Below, one piece after another: positions 42,211-56,772 of a DNA stretch of 64,000 nucleotides. The notes beneath the pieces are model-generated. The model made no database searches. It was not told the origin of the DNA and saw nothing but the letters and a program-made list of their open reading frames with translations. Both the position numbers and the translations under genes were made by a program. Numbering within the stretch: the stretch's first letter is position 1; each line of letters begins with the position of its first letter. Source of the DNA: Arcobacter aquimarinus (lineage in GTDB: Bacteria; Campylobacterota; Campylobacteria; Campylobacterales; Arcobacteraceae); NCBI RefSeq assembly GCF_013177635.1, contig NZ_CP030944.1, forward strand, positions 1,116,001 to 1,180,000, given 5' to 3'.

Positions 42211-42519
42211 TTACCAAGGACCTTGAAATCTAATAACTTTATGAGATACTTTTTTCTTATGTTTTGTAGCTTTTCCTTGAACTCTTTTTCTCCACATTTT
42301 AAAACTACTACTTTTCATCAAAGTTCGCATTTTATTTTTTACTTGATTTTCAGTTAAACCATAAAGTTCAAAGATAGTGTCAAAAGTAGTTCTATCTTGC
42401 CATGCCATTTCAATCAAACGATTTAAATCTTCTTCTTGAAAAGGAGTTAAATCTTGTTTTTCTTTTTTAGCTTTTTTTGTAAAATCTAGTTTCAAACTCT
42501 CTTTTTTCTCAAAGTACAT
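42211..42519 (-). CDS. TIGR03643-family protein
   Basis: A basic, 102-residue protein with a helix-turn-helix-like core (IEMAWQDRTTFDTIFELYG followed by TENQVKNKMRTLMKSSSFK) and a Lys/Arg-rich tail (WRKRVQGKATKHKKK). This matches the TIGR03643 family, which is often found beside photolyases and lipocalins. It is probably a DNA- or RNA-binding protein by charge, but that is inference. It is the last gene of the photolyase operon and starts three bases after the lipocalin stop. Confidence 0.85.
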   Translation of the reverse strand: MYFEKKESLKLDFTKKAKKEKQDLTPFQEEDLNRLIEMAWQDRTTFDTIFELYGLTENQVKNKMRTLMKSSSFKMWRKRVQGKATKHKKKVSHKVIRFQGPW

Positions 42520-42522
42520 TTT

Positions 42523-43044
42523 TTATTCCTGAATAGTCCAGATTAATTTTGAACTGTCAAATCCTAAACTTGGAAGTTTTTTCAAGATATCTTTTTTGAT
42601 TTTTTCATCTAGTTTAGAAGTTCTTGCTAAAATCCAAAGATACTCTCTACTTGGCGTTCCAACAACGGCATATTCGTAGTTTTCATCAAGCATTAAAACC
42701 CAATAATCACCATAAAATGGTCTAAAAAAACTAACTTTTAATTTGCTATTTGATTCATCTATAGCATAAGCTCTACCAATAGCCTCTTTTTTATCATTTG
42801 TTTGGATTTTTGTACATCTGTTAATTACTTTGATTGTTTCTTCATTCATCATAGAGTAGTTTGCAGTTACATTTTTACAATCTCTTTCAAAAAAATGTTC
42901 ATACCTTGCTATTTCGTACCAAGTACCTAAATACTTATTTAGTTCTACTTTTTCTACAGTTTGTAGAGGTGGATTTTTTGAAGAACAAGCTGTAAATAAA
43001 AATACAAAAGATGTGATGATTAGGAGTTTGAAAAACTTTAACAT
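42523..43044 (-). CDS. Lipocalin lipoprotein (Blc-like)
   Basis: 173 residues with a lipoprotein signal (lipobox LFTAC, Cys near 20) and a lipocalin barrel. The signature is LNKYLGTWYEIARYEHFFE, followed by CKNVTANYSM and a final ILARTSKL. Bacterial lipocalins of this type bind fatty acids or lysophospholipids at the outer membrane. It lies between the TIGR03915 gene and TIGR03643 on one strand. A second, smaller lipocalin gene is at 52448. Confidence 0.9.
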   Translation of the reverse strand: MLKFFKLLIITSFVFLFTACSSKNPPLQTVEKVELNKYLGTWYEIARYEHFFERDCKNVTANYSMMNEETIKVINRCTKIQTNDKKEAIGRAYAIDESNSKLKVSFFRPFYGDYWVLMLDENYEYAVVGTPSREYLWILARTSKLDEKIKKDILKKLPSLGFDSSKLIWTIQE

Positions 43045-43108: not shown

Positions 43109-43840
43109 TTAATCGAAAAATTCACTCATATATGTTCTATAGACAAGTGGGACTAAATTTTGTTGTAGTTTTAGATTTATTCTCTCTTTTATTGTAACTC
43201 CTCTAAAAAAACTCTTCCAAAGCTTTTGGAATTTTTCTTCATTTGAAGAATAGATTGGTTCATCAAAATAAGCAATTTCTTGTATAGAAAACTCTTCATC
43301 TATTTTTACAAATGCTAACTTTCTATCTAGGTCGTGGATTATGAAATTTTGATTATTGAATCTTTTTAAAAAGTGTTTTCCTAAAAAATAAACTACATTA
43401 AATTTTGATTCTATTTTTCCATATAAAGTGCCATCTTCAAGCTCTTCAAATCTAATAAAAGCATACATTTTATGAACTAGCCTAAATAACTCTTTTTCAA
43501 GTGAATTTAGGTAAAAAACGCAAGAATTATTTATATTGTATAGTTGTTTTGAATCTTTAAATCCAATGATAATATACTCTAAAAGAGCCATTTCAAACTC
43601 TTTTGAATCACACATAAAAATATTTAGTATCTTTTCAAAACAATCTTTTTGAAACTTTATTTTTAGTGCATTAAAAACTTTTTCATATTTCTCTTTTGAA
43701 GTTTCTATTTCTAATATTTTTTCAAAAATAATTTCATTTGGAAGAGTTTTATAAATTTTTGTAGGTTTTAATTTTTTATAATAAACTTCATAAACTAAAG
43801 TTAAAAATCCTTCAAAACTTCCATCATAAATTAAAATCAT
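43109..43840 (-). CDS. TIGR03915-family putative DNA-repair protein
   Basis: A 243-residue protein that begins MILIYDGSFEGFLTLVYEVY, the diagnostic opening of TIGR03915 (DUF4130). It is characteristically paired with the radical-SAM gene of TIGR03916, as here: its start overlaps the stop of that gene by four bases (ATGA). The pair is thought to act on DNA, possibly as a glycosylase-linked repair system, but no reaction is established. There is no fused uracil-DNA glycosylase domain. Confidence 0.87.
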   Translation of the reverse strand: MILIYDGSFEGFLTLVYEVYYKKLKPTKIYKTLPNEIIFEKILEIETSKEKYEKVFNALKIKFQKDCFEKILNIFMCDSKEFEMALLEYIIIGFKDSKQLYNINNSCVFYLNSLEKELFRLVHKMYAFIRFEELEDGTLYGKIESKFNVVYFLGKHFLKRFNNQNFIIHDLDRKLAFVKIDEEFSIQEIAYFDEPIYSSNEEKFQKLWKSFFRGVTIKERINLKLQQNLVPLVYRTYMSEFFD

Positions 43841-45072
43841 AATTCACCTGTTAGAGAACTAATATCAAAAAGTGAGGGTTGGATTAGTTTTTTTGGTTCT
43901 GGTTTAGTAAGTGCAAGTTTTAGACTTTCTCTATAAAATGGAACTTGCCTTTGAAACTCTTTGTTGCAAGTGATAAAGTATTTTGCTTTTTTGATTGAAA
44001 TTTTTAATTTTTTCAAATCATCAAAAGTAAGTCTTTTAAATCTTCTAGCACTTAAAATCTTCATCACACCTCTTGCTCCAACTCCTGGAATTCTAAGAAG
44101 TTCCTCTTTTGAAGCTGTGTTTATTTCCATAGGAAAATATTTTAGATTATTCAATGCCCAAAATGTTTTTGGGTCTAACTCTTCATCCAAATTTGGAAAC
44201 TCATCTGTTACTATCTCATCCCAAGAAAAGTCATAAAATCTAAGCAACCAATCAGCTTGATAAAGTCGATGTTCCCTTAAAAGTGGTGGTTTTGTGATTG
44301 TTGAGGGAAGATTTTTGTCATTGTTTACTGGAATATAAGCACTATAATAAACCCTTTTTAAAAGCGCTTTATCGTATAAAGCAGAGCTAAGTTTTAAAAT
44401 ATCCCTATCACTTTCAGGTGTTGCTCCAACGATTAACTGTGTACTCATTCCTATTGGTTTTTGCTCTTTTGCAAGACTTAAATCCCTTGCAAATTTTAGT
44501 GGTTGTAAAACTTTTTCTTTTGTTTTATTTGGTGCTAAAAGTTTTAAAGATTTGTCGCTTGGAAGTTCTATATTTGAACTTACTCTATTTGCTAGTTTTA
44601 CGATTTGCTCAACCAATTCCATAGAACAACCAGGGATTAATTTTACATGAATGTAACCATTAAATCTATATTCATATCGTAAAATCTTTAAAGCTTTTAA
44701 AATCAAAGTCATAGTATGGTCTTCGTTTTTTACAATTCCAGAACTCAAAAATAGTCCCTCAATATAGTTTCTTTTATAAAAATTGATTGTAATGTCTGCA
44801 AGTTCTCGTGGGCTAAAAACAGCTCTTGGAATATCGTTTGAAACACGATTTATGCAATATGCACAATCATAAATACAAATATTTGTAAGTAATACTTTTA
44901 GAAGTGAAACACATCTTCCATCAGGTGTGAAAGTGTGGCAAATTCCACTTGTGTGAGTTGCTCCTAGTTCTCCTTTTTTGAAGCTTGTTTCAACTCCACT
45001 TGAAGAGCAAGAGACATCATATTTTGCACTATTACTAAGGATTTCCATTTTTTCATAAATATCTGTTTTCAT
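43837..45072 (-). CDS. Putative DNA modification/repair radical SAM protein (TIGR03916)
   Basis: 411 residues. The 4Fe-4S radical-SAM site is CIYDCAYCINR (the CX3CX2C motif, near 69), followed by the radical-SAM barrel (YIHVKLIPGCSMELVEQIV split here). The C-terminus has a helix-hairpin-helix (LLRIPGVGARGVMKILSARR), which points to DNA. It overlaps its partner TIGR03915 by four bases. Substrate and product are unknown. It lies 43 bases after the photolyase-like gene. Confidence 0.9.
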   Translation of the reverse strand: MKTDIYEKMEILSNSAKYDVSCSSSGVETSFKKGELGATHTSGICHTFTPDGRCVSLLKVLLTNICIYDCAYCINRVSNDIPRAVFSPRELADITINFYKRNYIEGLFLSSGIVKNEDHTMTLILKALKILRYEYRFNGYIHVKLIPGCSMELVEQIVKLANRVSSNIELPSDKSLKLLAPNKTKEKVLQPLKFARDLSLAKEQKPIGMSTQLIVGATPESDRDILKLSSALYDKALLKRVYYSAYIPVNNDKNLPSTITKPPLLREHRLYQADWLLRFYDFSWDEIVTDEFPNLDEELDPKTFWALNNLKYFPMEINTASKEELLRIPGVGARGVMKILSARRFKRLTFDDLKKLKISIKKAKYFITCNKEFQRQVPFYRESLKLALTKPEPKKLIQPSLFDISSLTGEL

Positions 45073-45115: not shown

Positions 45116-46510
45116 TCAATCTGTAATGAAAAGTTTTTCTAAAAATTCATTTGCGATTTTTAGATGATTTTCTAGCTTTTCTTTGGGCATTTTATTTAGA
45201 AGTGCTATTTGCATTTTCATTCGTGGATTTTTGTCAAATTTAAAAGAATATTTATATAAAAATCTCCAATAAAGTGCATCTATAATCTTGCACCACTCTT
45301 CTTTTTTATCATAATCACTCATCTTTAAAAGATAGTTTGAACTTGCTATATAAGGCTTTGTAGTGATACTTCCCCCATCACTAAAACCACTCATTCCATA
45401 AACATTTCCAACCATCACCCAATCGTAAGCATCGATGTAATTTTTCATAAAAAACTCATAAACTTCATTTGGTTTAATCTCAAGTAATAAAAAAATATTT
45501 CCTAAAATCATAAGCCTTTCTATGTGGTGATTATAAGCTGTAAGATTTAGTTTTTTGATTGTGTCATCAAGTATTTTTATACCACTTTTAGCTTCTAAAA
45601 TTTTTTGTGGCATAGAGTTTTTAAACTTAAAAAAGTTTGAATTTCTCAAGAGTATCCCATCATCTTCATAAACTCGAAGCATAAATTCCCTCCAACCGAT
45701 GATTTGTCTTATAAAGCCTTCTTTTGCATTGTATGGAGCATCAAAATTTACTATTTTTTCCATTAACTCATGTAAATCAAGTAAACCAATATTTAAACTA
45801 CTTGAAATATTTGAATGAAATAAAAAGTTTTGTTTTATATCTTTTGTAATTGCATCTTGAAAAGAGCCAAAATTTTCAAATTTCTCTTTTAAAAAATAGT
45901 TTAGTTGGATATTTGCTTCATCAAAAGTTGTAGGATAATAAAAGTTCTCACAAACTCCAACACTTTTAAATTTTTTACAGTAAATCAAAGCCTCTTTTAC
46001 AAACTCATTTTCAAAAGCTAAAGTAGGGGGAATTTTTATCTCCTTTGGAAGTTTTTTTCTATTATCCTCATCAAAGCTATATTTATCAAAAAAAGGTTTT
46101 CCATTTTGCATGAAAATATCCAACTCTTTTCTTCTATTTATATAAAACTTATGCAAAAACTTGTTTTTATCTTTTGGGTTTATAAAGTTTGGATTTTTGA
46201 TTGTTGTGATGTTTGAAAAGTTTTTATAAACCTTTTTTTCCAAATAATTATCAAAAAGTTCATAAACAAAAACCTCTTCATTTTTATAAAGTTCAAGATA
46301 ACTCTCATCTTCAAAATACTCAACTAAAATATTGTTTTGTTTTAAATAAGATTCATAAAACTTCATCGAAGCTCTATGAAGCACAAGCTTTTGAATATGA
46401 AAATCATATTGGGTAAAAAATAACGGTTCTTCTATTAAAAGCACTTTTTTATTTACAAAGTTTGATATGTTTTTAAATAGTTGGTTTGGGTAGAGTATAA
46501 ATGTTTTCAT
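45116..46510 (-). CDS. Cryptochrome/photolyase-related protein (PF04244 group), Fe-S ligands missing
   Basis: 464 residues of the deoxyribodipyrimidine-photolyase-related (FeS-BCP/CryB/PhrB) group. The flavin-binding half is recognisable by REGFIRQIIGWREF-like (here EGFIRQIIGWREFML), YNHHIERLMILGN, and DAYDWVMVGNVYGMS with GGSITTKPYIASS. Relatives bind a [4Fe-4S] cluster through four Cys, one in TGMxC and three near the SDYC region. Here the first is Ile (SGIKILDDTI) and only one Cys (EEWCK) remains before LYWRF. The cluster is therefore probably absent. It heads the TIGR03916/03915, lipocalin and TIGR03643 run. Confidence 0.85.
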   Translation of the reverse strand: MKTFILYPNQLFKNISNFVNKKVLLIEEPLFFTQYDFHIQKLVLHRASMKFYESYLKQNNILVEYFEDESYLELYKNEEVFVYELFDNYLEKKVYKNFSNITTIKNPNFINPKDKNKFLHKFYINRRKELDIFMQNGKPFFDKYSFDEDNRKKLPKEIKIPPTLAFENEFVKEALIYCKKFKSVGVCENFYYPTTFDEANIQLNYFLKEKFENFGSFQDAITKDIKQNFLFHSNISSSLNIGLLDLHELMEKIVNFDAPYNAKEGFIRQIIGWREFMLRVYEDDGILLRNSNFFKFKNSMPQKILEAKSGIKILDDTIKKLNLTAYNHHIERLMILGNIFLLLEIKPNEVYEFFMKNYIDAYDWVMVGNVYGMSGFSDGGSITTKPYIASSNYLLKMSDYDKKEEWCKIIDALYWRFLYKYSFKFDKNPRMKMQIALLNKMPKEKLENHLKIANEFLEKLFITD

Positions 46511-48705: not shown

Positions 48706-49233
48706 TTAATCCTTGATTATAGTAATTACGATTTCACCTACAACAAAACCAAATTTTTTTAGTTTTGAGTGATTTATAATAACTCCATCATCTTGTAAGT
48801 GAAGCCAATCTTGAACACTTAAATCAATAGTAGAATCTTTATAAGGAGTTCTCATAACATAGTCAATCATTACTGTATTTCCATTTGCTATCATTGGGCT
48901 TTCTCCAATAATATCATTTGCAGTTGCTATAAATTTTTTATCTCCTGTTGGTTTTAAAGTCCAAATCCTTTTCATCTCTTCACCATCATCATAAACAAAA
49001 TATTCATCAAGTGTTCCAATACCGTTTTTATCCCAAGAACCAACCATTGTTCCTTTGAATGTTCTTGTTATTTTTCCACTTCTATCTTTTACAAGTCCAT
49101 AGGCTCTTAATTTACCATTGAAATATTCTTGTGGAATAAACTCTGGTTTTGTGTTGTTAAAATCTTCTATTTTCATTGCTGTACATCCTGTTAGTAGTAT
49201 GGTTGTTAAAAAAACTAATATTAAATTTTTCAT
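48706..49233 (-). CDS. DUF3833-family lipoprotein
   Basis: A 175-residue protein with a lipobox (TTILLTGCTAM, Cys near 17) and a beta-rich domain. Family markers are YFNGKLRAYGLVKDRSGK, IGTLDEYFVYDDGEEMKRIW and the last strand MRTPYKDSTIDLSVQDW split. DUF3833 genes usually sit in singlet-oxygen-type clusters with Cfa-like enzymes, as here. Binding of modified lipid is a reasonable guess. Its ATG overlaps the stop of the methyltransferase by four bases. Confidence 0.87.
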   Translation of the reverse strand: MKNLILVFLTTILLTGCTAMKIEDFNNTKPEFIPQEYFNGKLRAYGLVKDRSGKITRTFKGTMVGSWDKNGIGTLDEYFVYDDGEEMKRIWTLKPTGDKKFIATANDIIGESPMIANGNTVMIDYVMRTPYKDSTIDLSVQDWLHLQDDGVIINHSKLKKFGFVVGEIVITIIKD

Positions 49234-50456
49234 GCTATTAATCCTTTATTTAAATCTATATTTTGGTCTCTTGTAAAAACCAATTGATGAAGATTTATAT
49301 TTCTTGTTAAAAATGCAGCTTCACAATAGTTTAAATACATTTTCCACATTCGTATAAAATATTCATCAAAACCTAAATTCTTAATTTCTTCTAATTTTTT
49401 TTCAAAATTTTCATGCCAAATATTTAAAGTCTTTGCATAATCTTCTGTAAACTCTTCAAGATGATTTAGATTTAATCTTGTATGTTTTGACGTCACTTCA
49501 AGGATTTTAGAGATACTTGGAAGATGACCTCCTGGGAAGATATATTTTTGTATAAAATCAGTGCCTTTTGAGTAAGCTTTATATCTTTGGTCTGGCATTG
49601 TGATTACTTGAAGAACTAAAACTCCATTTGGTTTTAGTAGCTCTTGACACTTTTTAAAGAAGATATGAAAATACTCTTTTCCCACAGCTTCAAACATCTC
49701 AACGGCAATTATTGCATCAAATTTACCATTTAAATCTCTGTAATCTTTAAGTAAAATGTCAATTTTATCTTCTATCTTATGCTCTTTAAATCTATCTTCA
49801 CAAAGTTTTTTTTGCTCAACACTTAAAGTTACCGTTGTAACATCACAACCTTTATCATTTGCCAAATGAAGTGCCATAGCTCCCCAACCTGAGCCAATTT
49901 CTAAAACTTTAGAACCTTCTTTTAAGTTTAGTTTTGATGAAAGTTTTTCAAGTTTGTTTTTTTGTGCTTCGTATAAATCTTGGTTTTTGTGAGAAAAAAC
50001 AGCACTTGAATACATCATTGTTTCATCAAGCATTAGTTTATAAAAGTCGTTTGATAAGTCATAGTGCGCTGAGATATTTTTTCTTGAGTTTGTTTTTGAG
50101 TTTTTTCTTAAACTATGTTTGATTTTATTAAAAACAGGCATTAGATTTATTAGTCTGTTTTTTTCATTTTCACTTGTAGTTCCAAGATATTTTGCATTTA
50201 AAAGTGCTAGTTCTATTAGTTTTGTAAGATTTGAAGTTTCAAAATCTTTGTCTATGTAACTCTCACAAAAACCAATATCTCCATAAAGTATGGTTCTACT
50301 AAAAAATCTATTGTTATATATTTCTAAAGTTATTTTTTCTTCAACTTTTTTTTCTCCATAAAGTTTGATAGTTCCATCTTTATAGATTACTTGTAATGTT
50401 CCTATTTTTATTTTTGAAAAGAAGTTATCTCCAAATTTATTCCATAATTTTTGCAT
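49230..50456 (-). CDS. Cyclopropane-fatty-acyl-phospholipid synthase-family methyltransferase
   Basis: A 408-residue SAM-dependent enzyme. The N-terminal accessory domain (about 1-110) is followed by the methyltransferase fold with HYDLSNDFYKLMLDETMMYS, the SAM motif VLEIGSGWGAMALHLA near 188, IIAVEMFEAVGKEYF near 255 and FIQKYIFPGGHLPS near 310. These are the Cfa pattern, so it methylates unsaturated acyl chains on phospholipids to make cyclopropane or branched rings. In ChrR-type clusters, related enzymes start furan or cyclopropane fatty acid synthesis. It is co-transcribed with DUF1365 (2-base gap). Confidence 0.9.
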   Translation of the reverse strand: MQKLWNKFGDNFFSKIKIGTLQVIYKDGTIKLYGEKKVEEKITLEIYNNRFFSRTILYGDIGFCESYIDKDFETSNLTKLIELALLNAKYLGTTSENEKNRLINLMPVFNKIKHSLRKNSKTNSRKNISAHYDLSNDFYKLMLDETMMYSSAVFSHKNQDLYEAQKNKLEKLSSKLNLKEGSKVLEIGSGWGAMALHLANDKGCDVTTVTLSVEQKKLCEDRFKEHKIEDKIDILLKDYRDLNGKFDAIIAVEMFEAVGKEYFHIFFKKCQELLKPNGVLVLQVITMPDQRYKAYSKGTDFIQKYIFPGGHLPSISKILEVTSKHTRLNLNHLEEFTEDYAKTLNIWHENFEKKLEEIKNLGFDEYFIRMWKMYLNYCEAAFLTRNINLHQLVFTRDQNIDLNKGLIA

Positions 50457-50458
50457 TT

Positions 50459-51211
50459 TTAATACCTCCTTATTTTGTCATTTTCTCTTGGAAAATAGAT
50501 TTTTAACCCTTTTAAATAAAGCCTAAGAGCATGATAATAAGTTCGAGAAACCACTAAAAAAGTGCTGAACATATATCGAAAAAATATTTTTAGTATATTT
50601 TTAAAAGTGTAGGGCTTTGCTTTTGAGTTAAAAATCGCTGTTAATTTATGTTGTTTATCTTCGTATAAATCTATTTTTATAAATAATTTGTTTTCATCAT
50701 ACTTTAGCTCAAACTCATAAACTCCCTCACACTCAAAAAAAGGTGAAACATACATATCTTTTTTTACAACTCCAAAATATGAATTGTCTCTTTTTTCAAG
50801 TTTTACTGGGTAAACAACACGACCGTTGTTGTAGTTATGAACTTCAGCTAAAATATAAGTTGGAAGATTTTCTTCATCAAATAAAACCAAAACACTAATA
50901 GGATTAAAAACAAAGTTTAAAACCCTTGGAAGTGTTAAAAATCTCATTTTTGATGTTGTTTTTAAATCAAATCTTTTTAAAAGTTCCTCTATGTTTTTTA
51001 TAAAATCCGTAGTTTTCCCAAAGTGGTCAAAACTTTGTAGACTCATAAAATTTAGTTTGTTTATAGAAAAAATTCTATTTTCTAAACTTTTTAAATCAAA
51101 CAGATCAATATCAAGCAGATAAAAGTTATATTTAAAATCGTGCTTTTTAGGAAGAAATCTTTTATGATAAATAGTTCCTTCAAAAATATTGTGATTTGAT
51201 AAATTTTGCAT
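50459..51211 (-). CDS. DUF1365-family protein
   Basis: A 250-residue protein matching DUF1365: GTIYHKRFLPKKHDFKYNFY at the start, FLTLPRVLNFVFNPISVLVL in the middle, and VKKDMYVSPFFECEGVYEF, with final helices YMFSTFLVVSRTYYHAL. Enzymatic role is unknown, but the gene almost always neighbours an FAD amine-oxidase-like and a Cfa-like gene. I use the ATG at 51211, which directly follows the upstream stop at 51213, because a longer frame would overlap that gene by 40 bases. A weakly hydrophobic C-terminus may associate with the membrane. Confidence 0.87.
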   Translation of the reverse strand: MQNLSNHNIFEGTIYHKRFLPKKHDFKYNFYLLDIDLFDLKSLENRIFSINKLNFMSLQSFDHFGKTTDFIKNIEELLKRFDLKTTSKMRFLTLPRVLNFVFNPISVLVLFDEENLPTYILAEVHNYNNGRVVYPVKLEKRDNSYFGVVKKDMYVSPFFECEGVYEFELKYDENKLFIKIDLYEDKQHKLTAIFNSKAKPYTFKNILKIFFRYMFSTFLVVSRTYYHALRLYLKGLKIYFPRENDKIRRY

Positions 51212-51212
51212 T

Positions 51213-52451
51213 TTAGAACTCGCATCCAAGTTTTGAAGCCACTTTTGTAGCACTTAAAAGTCCATCTTCATGGAAACCATATCTCCAATAAGCTCCTGCA
51301 AAATAAGTGTTATTATGTCCACAAATTTCATCTTTTCTGCTTTGCATTTTTATTGCAAGTGAATCAAATTGAGGGTGTTCATAAGAGATTTTTTCAATCA
51401 CGTTGTTTATATTTTGAGTCTCATTTAATGATACAAAATAATCTTTTTTTGTTTTTAGATTTTGTAGAGTATTTATCCAATAACTAAGTGTTACAAGCTT
51501 ATTTTGCGTGTTTGAACTTGTATAGTTCCAAGCTGCATACATTTTTCTATTTGGATATAAAATATTATTGTCATTATGTAAAACGGCGCTATTTTCTTTA
51601 TATTTAAAAGCACTTAAAATTTCAATTTCTTTTTGTGTAGGATTTTCTAAAATATCTAAAGCTTGTGGTGCATGCATAGCTAATACAACTTTGTCATAAA
51701 AAGATTTATTTCCATTTCTATGGATTAAATAAACCTCATTTTCTTCCCTTTGAACTTTTACAACATCAGAGTTTACAAATATTTTTCCTGAGATTTTATT
51801 TTTTATTTTATTTACATAATTTATGCTTCCATTACTAACAGTTAGCCATTGATGATGAGTTGAAACTCCTAAAAGACCATGGTTTTTAAAAAATGTTAAA
51901 AATGTTCTTGCTGGAAAATTATTCATTTCATTGCTTGGAGTTGACCAAATAGCAGCACCCATTGGGAGTAAATATCTTTGTTTGAAAGCATCTGAATAAT
52001 CTTTTATGTATTCTCCTAAAGTTTTGTCTAAATTTGAATTACACTCTTTTAAATCTTCATTTGCTTTTTTATTAAAATCTAAAATATCTTTTATCATTTT
52101 ATAGTGAGTAAGTGAAAAAAGATTTCTTTTTTGAGCAAACATTCCTTTTAAAGAAGAGCCATTGTAAGCTCTGTTTATATCTTTATCCCAAAAAGCAAAA
52201 CTCATATCAGAGTTTTCTATCTTTACATCTAACTCTTTAAATAGTTTTGTCAAAAGTGGATAAGTTGGATGATTAAAAACTAAAAAACCAGTATCAACAC
52301 CAAAGACTTTATCCTCATCTTGAACCATTGTAGTTCTAGCATGTCCTCCTAATCTATCCTCTTTTTCGTATAAATCAACTTCATGTTTTTTGCTTAAAAT
52401 ATAGGCACTTCCAAGTCCACTAATTCCAGCTCCTAAAACTGCTATTTTCAT
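51213..52451 (-). CDS. FAD-dependent amine-oxidase-like oxidoreductase
   Basis: 412 residues. The N-terminal flavin fold is IAVLGAGISGLGSAYIL with EKEDRLGGHARTT, then VDTGFLVFNHPTYPLL. The C-terminus ends in a second flavin motif, AGAYWRYGFHEDGLLSA. This is the predicted NAD/FAD-binding protein paired with DUF1365 and Cfa-like genes, thought to oxidise or desaturate a fatty-acyl product. It overlaps the lipocalin gene by four bases (ATGA) and is followed at once by DUF1365. Confidence 0.9.
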   Translation of the reverse strand: MKIAVLGAGISGLGSAYILSKKHEVDLYEKEDRLGGHARTTMVQDEDKVFGVDTGFLVFNHPTYPLLTKLFKELDVKIENSDMSFAFWDKDINRAYNGSSLKGMFAQKRNLFSLTHYKMIKDILDFNKKANEDLKECNSNLDKTLGEYIKDYSDAFKQRYLLPMGAAIWSTPSNEMNNFPARTFLTFFKNHGLLGVSTHHQWLTVSNGSINYVNKIKNKISGKIFVNSDVVKVQREENEVYLIHRNGNKSFYDKVVLAMHAPQALDILENPTQKEIEILSAFKYKENSAVLHNDNNILYPNRKMYAAWNYTSSNTQNKLVTLSYWINTLQNLKTKKDYFVSLNETQNINNVIEKISYEHPQFDSLAIKMQSRKDEICGHNNTYFAGAYWRYGFHEDGLLSATKVASKLGCEF

Positions 52452-52936
52452 TTGTATCTTCCTTTTGGGTCAAGTTTTGTAAAAACTAATTTTGAAATAT
52501 CCATTTTGTTTTTTAAATCATTTAGAATTTTTTCTAACTCATTTTTATCTATATTTGGTGTTCTACTCATAATCCAAAGATTTGAATAATCATCATTTGA
52601 AACAACTGCTGTTTTATAATCATTCAAATATTCGATTTTATATGAAGTTCTAAAAACAAAAAAATATCTCATAAAAAGTTGGTTATTTTCTAGTTTTGCA
52701 AAACCGTTATATTCTATTAGTTTTCCATTTAATTCATTTTCAAAACATCTATTATAAACATCATAAGTGTTATTTTCTTGGAGTTTGTATTCTACGCTTG
52801 AGGCTACACAAGAGGTTTGAAAGCTATTTTCAATCCTTGCTACTTCATACCAAAGTCCAGAAAATTTTTTAATATCAATAGAAGTATTTGCAAAGATTGA
52901 TGAAGAAAAAAATATTGACAAAAATAAAAATTTCAC
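52448..52936 (-). CDS. Lipocalin-family periplasmic protein
   Basis: 162 residues with a signal peptide (about 1-16) but no obvious lipobox Cys. The lipocalin opening FSGLWYEVARIENSFQTSC is clear, with a barrel continuing to LWIMSRTPNIDKNEL. It is shorter than the lipocalin at 42523 and only moderately similar. Its place as the first of the tightly packed lipid genes suggests it carries the modified fatty acid. The stop overlaps the FAD enzyme start (ATGA). Confidence 0.87.
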   Translation of the reverse strand: MKFLFLSIFFSSSIFANTSIDIKKFSGLWYEVARIENSFQTSCVASSVEYKLQENNTYDVYNRCFENELNGKLIEYNGFAKLENNQLFMRYFFVFRTSYKIEYLNDYKTAVVSNDDYSNLWIMSRTPNIDKNELEKILNDLKNKMDISKLVFTKLDPKGRYK

Positions 52937-52994
52937 AAATACTCCTTTTGTTTAAACAAGGTAATTTATTATAAAAAAAGAGAGTTTTGTATGT

Positions 52995-54257
52995 TTATTT
53001 TGTTACTTTATATTTTAATAAGAAAATAATAGAAAGAAGTTTGAATAAAATAGGCAATATTGAGTATAAAAAGATAATTGCTAAAATTGATAACTGATTT
53101 ATATTTTGTGTTTCAAAATTTGTAAATTCTAAACTTATAAAAGAAATAGCAACAGCTAAAGATAAAGATAGTTTTGTAATCATTGCCCAAAAACCAAATA
53201 ACACTCCTGTTATGTCTTGATTTTTTTGTTTTGTTTCATTTGCTACATCAGCTTGAATAGAAGAGGGCAATGCCATATCAGCTCCCAAACACATTCCTGT
53301 TATAGCACAAATTATTGCAAAATAGAAAAAATCCCCTTCACTTAAAAAAGGCACAAAACTAAAAGCACTAATTGCAATAATAATTGACAAAATCCAAGTA
53401 GATTTTTTTGAGATTTTATTTGATAGTTTTATCCAAATTGGAAAAGTTATAATTGCACTTAAAAAATAGATTATCAAAAAAAGTCCAGTTTTTTCTTCTA
53501 AAACTAATACATATTTTACGAAAAATAAAAAAAGAGTTGCTGGAAGTGCATTTGCTAGATTATTTAATAAAAAAGCAAAAAATAATTTTTTATGATGAGG
53601 ATAATTTATAAAAAAAGTTTTTAAAGATTTGAAGAAATTATCAGAAATTATATTTTTATTTTTTATCTCTAAAGATTTCAGTTTTATATAAAAAATAGTT
53701 AAGATTATTGGAAAAATAATCAAAATTGTATAAAGTAAAAGTTCTAAACTTTTTTTTGAATCATCTGAAACTAAAAATATGTAAGGAATTAATAAAGAGA
53801 TTAAAACTCCAATAATTATAAAAATCTCTCTTGAAAAAGCAAGTTTTGTATTTTCACTTTCATTATTACTCAAAATCGAGTTTAAACTAAGATAAGGAAT
53901 TAAAACAAAACTATAAGAAATATATGTAATTATTGAAAATAAAAATAACCAAAAATAATTGTAATAAACAGGTTTTATTAAAAAAAATAGTCCAAAAACT
54001 AAAAAGATAGAAGAGATAAAAATAATATTAAATTTTGTGCTGTAAATATCACAGAATCTTCCTATAAATGGGTCTATTATCATATCAATTAATCTTGTAA
54101 TTAATAAAATAATACCAACAAATCCAACACTTAAACCAATATGTTCAACATAAAAAGTAGGTAAATAAATATACAAAGGAAAACCCAAAAAAGCAATAGG
54201 AATTCCAAGGATGCCATAAAGGAAAACTGTTTTGCTTTTTAGGGTATTATTATTCAT
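52995..54257 (-). CDS. MFS transporter (MFS_2/GPH-like)
   Basis: A 420-residue permease with about 12 helices. Features include the early GIPIAFLGFPLYIYLPTFY, a conserved RLIDMIIDPFIGRFCD loop near 55, and MCLGADMALPSSIQADVA near 310, the pattern of the GPH-type MFS carriers often found beside the FAD/DUF1365/Cfa set. It may export or flip the lipid product, but no substrate is known. It lies 58 bases upstream of the lipocalin and 46 downstream of the SDR. Confidence 0.85.
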   Translation of the reverse strand: MNNNTLKSKTVFLYGILGIPIAFLGFPLYIYLPTFYVEHIGLSVGFVGIILLITRLIDMIIDPFIGRFCDIYSTKFNIIFISSIFLVFGLFFLIKPVYYNYFWLFLFSIITYISYSFVLIPYLSLNSILSNNESENTKLAFSREIFIIIGVLISLLIPYIFLVSDDSKKSLELLLYTILIIFPIILTIFYIKLKSLEIKNKNIISDNFFKSLKTFFINYPHHKKLFFAFLLNNLANALPATLFLFFVKYVLVLEEKTGLFLIIYFLSAIITFPIWIKLSNKISKKSTWILSIIIAISAFSFVPFLSEGDFFYFAIICAITGMCLGADMALPSSIQADVANETKQKNQDITGVLFGFWAMITKLSLSLAVAISFISLEFTNFETQNINQLSILAIIFLYSILPILFKLLSIIFLLKYKVTK

Positions 54258-54303
54258 TAAAATCTAATCTTTTTTATATATTTCACAAGAATTTTTATTT
54301 TAA

Positions 54304-55062
54304 TCATTTTAAAAACTTTTTTGTTATAGAAAAACTTAAACTATATGGTAAAAAACTAAGTATTTTTAGAAACTTTGATAAAATAAAAGGAAATGAAATT
54401 TCAAATTTGTAGGGCTTATTTAAGCCTTCAAATATCTTTTTAGCTGCATAATTTACTTCCATTAGTTGAGGCATTTGAAAATCATTTTTAGCTGTTAATC
54501 TTGTTTTTACAAAACCATGATTTATGATTTGCACATAAATATTTTTTCTTTGTAATTCAGGCTGTAAAGATTGAGCAAGATTTACTAAAGCAGCTTTTGA
54601 AGCACTATAAGCTCCACCATAAGGTAAACCAAAACAACTTGCCAAACTTGCATTTAAAACAATAGTTGATTTGTGTTTTTGTTTTTCTAAATAAGCAATA
54701 AGTGGTTTTAAAACTCTTAAAACACCTAAATAATTTATGTTTATCATAGATTGAAAATTTGAAATATCCCATTGCTCGTAAGTCATTGATTCATAAACTC
54801 CTGCATTGTAAAAACAGATATCTAAACCATTAAAAATATTAAATGCTCTATCCACACTTTCGATAACATTTTCATTATCTAAAACATCAATATTTAAAAG
54901 TTCTAAATTATCTGTATAAGTTGATTTTAGATTTAATAGCTCATTTGAATTTTCTATATTTCTGGAACTTGCTATCACTTGATAATTATTTTGTAACCAT
55001 AACTTAACTAACTCTAAACCAATTCCACTACTAGAACCAATAATCCAAACTTTTTTTGCCAT
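54304..55062 (-). CDS. Short-chain dehydrogenase/reductase
   Basis: A 252-residue SDR. It carries the cofactor fold VWIIGSSSGIGLELV near 5, NAG in CFYNAGVYE near 85, the catalytic Ser in VLNASLASCFG near 135, and YSASK with Tyr and Lys near 147. The C-terminal part is more hydrophobic than usual (FEISFPFILSKFLKILSFL). I use the ATG at 55062 with AAAGG nine bases upstream; an in-frame TTG at 55071 is less likely. It heads the eight-gene run and may supply reducing steps for the fatty-acyl modification. Confidence 0.88.
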   Translation of the reverse strand: MAKKVWIIGSSSGIGLELVKLWLQNNYQVIASSRNIENSNELLNLKSTYTDNLELLNIDVLDNENVIESVDRAFNIFNGLDICFYNAGVYESMTYEQWDISNFQSMININYLGVLRVLKPLIAYLEKQKHKSTIVLNASLASCFGLPYGGAYSASKAALVNLAQSLQPELQRKNIYVQIINHGFVKTRLTAKNDFQMPQLMEVNYAAKKIFEGLNKPYKFEISFPFILSKFLKILSFLPYSLSFSITKKFLK

Positions 55063-55275
55063 GATAAACAACCTTTGTTTATTTAAGCTAGCAAATACTA
55101 ACTTGAGTAAATTATATGAGAAATAAAGTATTTTTTGTATTGCTTATATGTTCATTGATAATATATAAAAATTGTTTTGTTTTTAAAATTTTCAATTTTA
55201 TTATATATGAATATATAAGGAATAAAATGCTAAAATAAAGAACTAATGATTAAAAAAATAACAAAAAGGTAGGAT

Positions 55276-56772
55276 ATGCTAAACCTCGGGGAAATCGAAA
55301 AATGGTTAAAAGAACATTCAATTAATAACTATGTGATTTCAGAAGATTTCTATGTATCTGTTCAAGGTAATGTGAATTTAAATGAAAGACTAAATGGGAA
55401 AAAAATTCCTATTAAGTTTGATAGAATTGAAGGGTATTTTGATATAAGTAATAACAAGCTTACTTCATTAGAAGGTTGTCCTAAAACAGTAGCAAGGGAC
55501 TTTAACTGTTCTAGAAATAATTTGATTTCTTTATTTGATTGTCCTTCTGAAGTTGGTGATTTTGATTGTTCTTATAACCAATTAAAAACTTTATCTTATG
55601 CACCAAAAGAGGTAAGAGGAAGTTTTAATTGTTCTTATAATGAGTTAAAATCTATAAAAGCAAGTCCTAGAACAATAAAAGGGCATTTCAAGTGTAATGA
55701 CAATAAATTAGTATCTCTTGAAGGTGGACCTAAAAATATAGAGACATATTTTGATTGTTCAAATAATATTATTGAAAGATTGACAGGTGGACCTGTTAGT
55801 GTAAAACATGACTATATATGTCATGGAAATAATCTATCTGATTTAGAAGGATTAGCTGATGAAATTGGTGGAGATTTATTAACAGATGTTAAACTTAACA
55901 ATTTAACAGCTAGATATGATGATGAAGAAAAATATTGGAAATATAAAGGTTCTGAAGTAATCTCACATATTTATAAACCAATGGTTGCTCTTGTAAGTAA
56001 TGAAGATATTATTAATTGGTTACAAAAATATGATATTAAAAACTATACTATTTTAGCAGATAGTTCTGTTGATGTTGCAGGAGATGTTAAATTATCAGGA
56101 AGATTAACGAATCTTTTTAAATTACCTATTAATTTTAATAGTGTTGAAGGGGATTTTGATATCAGTGAAAATGAATTAGTATCACTAGAAGGAAGTCCTA
56201 AAAAAGTTGGAGGAAGTTTTTTAGCTCATAAAAATGAGTTAAACTCTTTAAAAGGTGGTCCAAAAGAGGTAAAAGGTAGTTTTATTATTTTACATAATAA
56301 TATTACTTCTTTATTAAATTCACCTACTATGGTAAAAGGGGATTATATCTGTTCTCATAATCCTTTACGAACATTAGAAGGATTAGGAACAGTTTTTGGA
56401 TACGTATTTACAGGAGTATATATCCCAAGACTTAAATGTCAAAAATATAATTATAAAGGTATTACTACTTATAAATATCCAGGTGATTCTGTTATGAAAT
56501 ATTTGGATGAAGAGTATATTTCTTTAACTGATGAAGAAAAAGCATTTGAAGCAACTAAAAAGAATTTAGAAAAAGTAATCAAAAAGATGCTAAATGCGGG
56601 AACTTTAACAAAAGAAATGGTTACGGATACTTTAATTAAAAATTTAACAAAATATCAGTTAGACCAATTAAAAACAAAAGTTTTATGGATTAAAAATCCA
56701 CCAAATGAAGATAATAGTGATGTTATAAGTGAAGATGATATCATGAAACTAGCTTTTGAAAAAGAGTTATAA
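55276..56772 (+). CDS. Phage-like leucine-rich-repeat protein with two duplicated lobes
   Basis: 498 residues. Two copies of a domain, about 2-235 and 241-400, each begin with a helical cap (EIEKWLKEHSINNYVI; DIINWLQKYDIKNYTI), continue with VQGNVNLN/VAGDVKLS, and then about 6-7 and 4-5 repeats of roughly 20 residues around SLEGxPKxVxGxFxCSxNxL. The C-terminal 90 residues are helical and charged. This repeat style is familiar from large myophage genomes and scattered bacteria. No signal or membrane segment is seen; a binding or scaffold role is likely but unproven. Single gene, GGTAGG before the ATG. Confidence 0.8.
   Translation: MLNLGEIEKWLKEHSINNYVISEDFYVSVQGNVNLNERLNGKKIPIKFDRIEGYFDISNNKLTSLEGCPKTVARDFNCSRNNLISLFDCPSEVGDFDCSYNQLKTLSYAPKEVRGSFNCSYNELKSIKASPRTIKGHFKCNDNKLVSLEGGPKNIETYFDCSNNIIERLTGGPVSVKHDYICHGNNLSDLEGLADEIGGDLLTDVKLNNLTARYDDEEKYWKYKGSEVISHIYKPMVALVSNEDIINWLQKYDIKNYTILADSSVDVAGDVKLSGRLTNLFKLPINFNSVEGDFDISENELVSLEGSPKKVGGSFLAHKNELNSLKGGPKEVKGSFIILHNNITSLLNSPTMVKGDYICSHNPLRTLEGLGTVFGYVFTGVYIPRLKCQKYNYKGITTYKYPGDSVMKYLDEEYISLTDEEKAFEATKKNLEKVIKKMLNAGTLTKEMVTDTLIKNLTKYQLDQLKTKVLWIKNPPNEDNSDVISEDDIMKLAFEKEL

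Follow-up and report, generated by a model that had tools for sequence, protein, structure and literature searches.

A (6-4) photolyase-type protein of Arcobacter aquimarinus without iron-sulfur ligands, and an apparently undescribed loss of both photoreduction tryptophans in Campylobacterota

Can a member of the prokaryotic (6-4) photolyase family work without the iron-sulfur (Fe-S) cluster that four cysteines hold in enzymes such as Agrobacterium PhrB? This question is raised by a gene of Arcobacter aquimarinus located in a 64,000-nucleotide stretch of contig NZ_CP030944.1 (positions 1,116,001 to 1,180,000; hereafter the window). The gene is an intact open reading frame (ORF) of 464 amino acids (aa) with exactly the boundaries first noted (Table 1). 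Its match to the PF04244 profile scored 91.9 bits (cut-off 22.1), and its sequence matches in the PDB were prokaryotic (6-4) photolyases only, namely those of Caulobacter, Agrobacterium (PhrB), Synechococcus, Rhodobacter (CryB) and Vibrio, with E-values down to 1.5e-57. An AlphaFold2 model, built with 38 sequences, reached a predicted local distance difference test (pLDDT) score of 92.2 and had its top fold match in the Caulobacter structure 9HNK (template modelling (TM) score 0.93). Judged by the PF04244 N-terminal domain and the PhrB-type fold of the model, the protein is a member of the prokaryotic (6-4) photolyase family, in agreement with the PhrB/CryB relationship proposed in the initial annotation. 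It is encoded by the sole PF04244 gene of the 2.5 Mb genome; elsewhere, this genome encodes a class I photolyase that closely resembles E. coli PhrB. Named relatives with 75-77% identity were Poseidonibacter ostreae and an Arcobacter metagenome-assembled genome. The absence of the cluster ligands at this locus is a sound observation on a group that is already known; the loss of the tryptophans of the electron relay is one lineage-specific addition that deserves specialist attention.

Alignment with PhrB (4DJA) and relatives, in PhrB numbering, revealed that none of the four ligand columns holds a cysteine. The C350 column is occupied by Ile313, the loop with C438 and C441 is deleted, and C454 corresponds to K408. 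Both segments quoted initially, SGIKILDD and MSDYDKKEEWCKIIDALYW, were found in the protein, and the ligand loss deduced from them was confirmed; the count of three missing cysteines is more exactly four, the call at the fourth column depending on a shift of one residue, as C407 aligns to A453 of PhrB, one residue ahead of the C454 column. As a candidate fourth ligand, C407 was rejected: it is one residue off, is serine (WC to WS) in four close relatives and is conserved in half of the Fe-S-free (FeS-free) branch described below. Since the whole protein contains three cysteines (178, 187 and 407, widely spaced in sequence), a cluster with four cysteine ligands is excluded by sequence. The Campylobacterota orthologs that span the ligand region are in the same ligand-less state, and the ratio of nonsynonymous to synonymous substitution rates (dN/dS) between this gene and nine congeneric and related genes was 0.08-0.17. 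This indicates purifying selection on the protein and, given the agreement of the orthologs, argues that the ligand loss is due neither to chance nor to sequencing error.

The ligand-less state is widespread. Our sample comprised 189 sequences, 30 of them from Campylobacterota (Arcobacteraceae, two other families and Sulfuricurvum). The number of ligand cysteines was either none (118 FeS-free sequences from many phyla) or four (71 sequences), with no intermediate. The best 80 genome-contig matches all lacked the ligands and came from Bacteroidota, Planctomycetota, Verrucomicrobiota, Ignavibacteriota, Acidobacteriota, Campylobacterota and others; the four-Cys proteins and further FeS-free ones were obtained through cyanobacterial and pseudomonad searches. 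Trees were calculated from a subsample after removal of the ligand columns, a quick one with 93 rows and a careful one with 88 rows that left out partial and the longest rows. A single branch split FeS-free from four-Cys sequences, with a support of 99 in the Shimodaira-Hasegawa-like approximate likelihood ratio test (SH-aLRT) in the quick tree and 100/100 in the careful tree, and the A. aquimarinus protein was placed deep within the FeS-free side. A class I outgroup attached inside the FeS-free side; the alternative that keeps this side together was not rejected and was 7.3 log units better (approximately unbiased test, p-AU 0.68), and rooting with class I photolyases did not fix the direction of change, be it loss or gain of the cluster. 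A long-branch FeS-free photolyase from a cyanobacterial-phylum genome (locus L227 of genome G644, a 568-aa frame) was the first to branch off among the FeS-free sequences in the quick tree and could help to root the family.

FeS-free members had been noted before. Already in 2015, the four cysteines were found absent in 7% of 464 family members (PMC4619345). A later classification, which recognised seven subgroups among 110 prokaryotic 6-4 photolyases, found them in all except subgroup M, whose 20 members include PromaPL of Prochlorococcus (PMC9178010), and the cluster has been stated to be possibly dispensable for repair in some of the family (PMC12082625). The main point of the initial annotation was therefore already established. 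Its view of the protein as exceptional was not supported, as FeS-free members, already in the literature, account for a large half of the family; nor was the idea that this protein would decide whether the cluster is required, a test that is largely at hand already, PromaPL being described in PMC9178010 as a cluster-less prokaryotic 6-4 photolyase.

Where the ligand loop was, the protein carries Trp406 (45293-45295), which is invariant in the FeS-free sequences (118/118) and found in none of the four-Cys sequences (0/71). The FeS-free branch can thus be recognised in sequences simply by Trp406, which may plug the empty cluster site. At the expected place of the cluster (blocks 311-320 and 391-420), the model had confidence values of 93-97. 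Together with the TM score to 9HNK, this leads to the prediction that the roof subdomain folds without the cluster.

The lineage-specific change concerns the electron route to flavin adenine dinucleotide (FAD). In PhrB this route runs through Trp342 and Trp390, and the W390F and W342F variants showed only subtle photoreduction (PMC4619345). Both tryptophans are lost in the A. aquimarinus protein, in which the respective positions are Leu305 and Phe353. Position 390 is Phe in 25 and Tyr in 5 of the 30 Campylobacterota sequences, while W390 is kept without exception in the remaining 88 FeS-free and in the 71 four-Cys sequences. Position 342 is Leu or Ile in Campylobacterota, rarely Tyr, Phe or Thr. 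The alignment around position 390 is free of gaps (VYEFFMKNYIDAYDWVM vs VHRWYLEVYADAYEWVE), and this column is one of only three that the Campylobacterota clade changed among 56 family-invariant columns. As the clade was supported with 100/100 in the careful tree, a single early Trp loss is the simplest reading. A search of the protein for a substitute relay tryptophan gave none, its four tryptophans all being common to the whole FeS-free branch; tyrosine gains fell mostly within the N-terminal domain. In the class I photolyase encoded by this genome, the triad sites, which we take to be W306, W359 and W382, aligned Trp to Trp with those of the E. coli enzyme. The statement that the flavin-binding sequence looks intact is correct for binding; the electron path, however, is not intact. 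The full four-residue relay occurs in no member of subgroup M (PMC9178010), and in most of them this incompleteness reflects the Tyr positions. A literature search for Campylobacterota or Arcobacter (6-4) photolyases returned nothing specific, and no earlier report of the relay-Trp loss was found in the searchable papers, supplementary tables excluded. The double loss in Campylobacterota thus appears to be new.

The residues for repair are retained. The equivalents of catalytic His366 (His329 here) and of lesion-binding Tyr424 (Tyr387) are conserved throughout the sample, as are those of Asp179, Asp254, Arg369 and Asp397 (189/189); that of Asn406 is present in 188/189. The FAD-binding residues are kept, and with them the catalytic ones and those for Mg2+, the two aspartates (Asp179 and Asp254) being the Mg2+ sites of PhrB. 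In PhrB, H366 mutants lost repair, and Y424 was required for both lesion binding and repair (PMC4619345). The antenna pocket keeps Glu27, Lys41 and Met49, but lacks the Glu37-Arg108 salt bridge and has a His floor. The genome yielded only sub-threshold matches to the FO synthase CofG and thus lends no support to an 8-hydroxydeazaflavin (8-HDF) antenna.

Considering these data, the protein is probably a functional (6-4) photolyase that belongs with the FeS-free enzymes of the PromaPL/subgroup M type. The roof subdomain would fold without a metal cluster, the ligand loop being replaced by the short turn that bears Trp406. Blue light would excite reduced FAD, which would pass an electron to the (6-4) photoproduct as in PhrB, with His329 as putative proton donor and Mg2+ aiding lesion binding. 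Re-reduction of the flavin via the PhrB-type path is expected to be inefficient because both relay tryptophans are lost; FAD may rather be held reduced by cellular reductants, or receive electrons from alternative donors such as Tyr362 (Y399 of PhrB) or Met366 beside N5. The low-oxygen habitats of Campylobacterota would ease keeping FAD reduced. As a separate class I photolyase is encoded in the same genome, a (6-4) enzyme would complement the repair set. More tentatively, the FeS-free photolyases of Campylobacterota at large may repair without cluster or Trp relay, the cell itself (low oxygen, cytosolic reductants or the N5 Met) holding the flavin reduced; if true, the cluster and the Trp relay of the textbook enzyme would both be dispensable in nature.

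Several observations weigh against a functional (6-4) photolyase. The PhrB-type photoreduction path is gone, the protein has a shortened, divergent N-terminal antenna domain and an uncertain antenna, and a role on cyclobutane pyrimidine dimers (CPDs) has been proposed from genetics, namely UV-B and UV-C survival, for the FeS-free Phr2 of marine Synechococcus, a picocyanobacterium (PMC9426592). Repair of CPDs instead of (6-4) photoproducts is nevertheless unlikely here, as the genome already encodes the class I photolyase and PromaPL, likewise FeS-free, is placed among the 6-4 photolyases in PMC9178010. An equally improbable alternative is that the protein mainly has a light-sensing or regulatory role of the cryptochrome type, as has been proposed for CryB, and does not chiefly repair DNA. 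Rhodobacter CryB has regulatory effects (stated in PMC9178010), and the relay loss and an adjoining probable light/oxidative-stress gene block leave room for a non-repair role; however, the residues required for repair are all strictly conserved, and loss of the relay itself speaks against signalling by photoreduction, the usual trigger of cryptochromes. Decay to a non-functional gene, of which three congeners hold examples as broken photolyase remnants, is very improbable for an intact ORF with dN/dS about 0.1, invariant catalytic residues and orthologs in several Campylobacterota families. That the protein still binds a cluster through other ligands is scarcely credible, for although C407 adjoins the fourth ligand column, the three cysteines lie far apart and outside the ligand columns, conservation of C178 and C187 does not extend beyond Campylobacterota, and serine replaces C407 in several relatives. 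The functional FeS-free (6-4) photolyase remains the preferred reading.

Downstream of the photolyase gene, at a distance of 43 bases, lies a gene for a radical S-adenosylmethionine (SAM) protein with which it is possibly co-transcribed, followed by its DUF4130 partner (Table 1). This order of three genes is retained in many relatives. The radical-SAM/DUF4130 pair adjoins the photolyase in many Campylobacterota, lies nearby in a few others and is also retained beside the broken remnants of the three congeners. In an order-level relative (locus L043, 1255-2913, minus strand), the photolyase is fused C-terminally to TIGR03643/DUF2805 in a protein of 553 aa, and in 19 of 80 genome-contig loci TIGR03643 was located no more than 5 kb from the photolyase. 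The fusion and this proximity suggest a functional link between the two.

Table 1. Features of the photolyase region, with positions in the window
Feature	Position	Strand	Basis
FeS-free prokaryotic (6-4) photolyase-type protein, 464 aa	45116..46510	-	PF04244, PDB matches, AlphaFold2 fold
Leu305 replacing photoreduction Trp342	45596..45598	-	alignment with PhrB and relatives
Ile313 at column of Fe-S ligand C350	45572..45574	-	alignment with PhrB and relatives
His329, catalytic His366 of PhrB	45524..45526	-	conserved 189/189
Phe353 replacing photoreduction Trp390	45452..45454	-	Trp in 0/30 Campylobacterota, 159/159 of the rest
Met366 next to flavin N5 (E403 of PhrB)	45413..45415	-	Met in 118/118 FeS-free
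Tyr387, lesion-binding Tyr424 of PhrB	45350..45352	-	conserved 189/189
Residues 399-408 (DYDKKEEWCK), loop with C438 and C441 deleted	45287..45316	-	alignment
TIGR03916 radical-SAM putative DNA modification/repair protein	43837..45072	-	profile match
TIGR03915/DUF4130 partner of radical-SAM protein, putative DNA repair label	43109..43840	-	profile match
Lipocalin (Blc-like)	42523..43044	-	profile match
TIGR03643/DUF2805	42211..42519	-	profile match

Upstream, a block on the minus strand (48706-55071) encodes DUF3833, a cyclopropane fatty acid (CFA) synthase, DUF1365, an FAD oxidoreductase, a second lipocalin, a major facilitator superfamily (MFS) protein and a short-chain dehydrogenase/reductase (SDR). 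It resembles light/oxidative-stress gene sets of other bacteria and is conserved at three further loci and partly at two more. In Vibrio cholerae, photolyase-family genes and a CFA synthase are induced by blue light (PMC5241685), and by analogy the region may plausibly have a role in light stress. Beyond this block, a repetitive 498-aa protein with many short Leu- and Asn-rich repeats (NxLxSLxGxPKxV) is encoded on the plus strand (55276-56772).

Since PhrB variants mutated in the Fe-S ligands either failed to express or were insoluble (PMC4619345), natural FeS-free relatives offer the practical route to the role of the cluster, and their branch is large and already named. Photoreduction is often regarded as an in vitro activation step. 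The loss of both relay tryptophans in one phylum, with the class I triad kept in the same genome, offers a natural test of the cellular importance of photoreduction.

Compared with known systems, the protein shares its fold (TM 0.89-0.93, normalised by the A. aquimarinus protein), FAD, Mg2+ and catalytic residues with the Fe-S bacterial cryptochromes and photolyases (FeS-BCP) Agrobacterium PhrB (4DJA), Caulobacter 9HNK, Rhodobacter CryB (3ZXS) and V. cholerae 7YKN. Unlike these, it has no Fe-S ligands (0/4 cysteines), has L305 and F353 in place of the W342/W390 relay and carries Met instead of Glu at flavin N5; its antenna site is without the Glu37-Arg108 salt bridge and has His, instead of an apolar residue, at the floor. 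Its tree position is also outside this subtype. SePhrB of S. elongatus (8IJY) shares the N5 Met and has altered relay Tyr positions, but retains the four cysteines and both tryptophans, whose columns (W342 and W390) show almost no variation among the four-Cys sequences. The closest likeness is to subgroup M/PromaPL, with the same catalytic residues, Met at flavin N5, no ligand cysteines and grouping apart from the four-Cys members; in the tree, the protein shares one branch with four cyanobacterial sequences (L221-L224) that come from genomes of Prochlorococcus size (1.6-1.7 Mb) and stand in for authentic PromaPL. The Campylobacterota members differ from subgroup M in lacking W390 and W342, in a shorter N-terminal domain (about 467 vs 502 aa) and in often having Ile instead of Pro at the C350 column.
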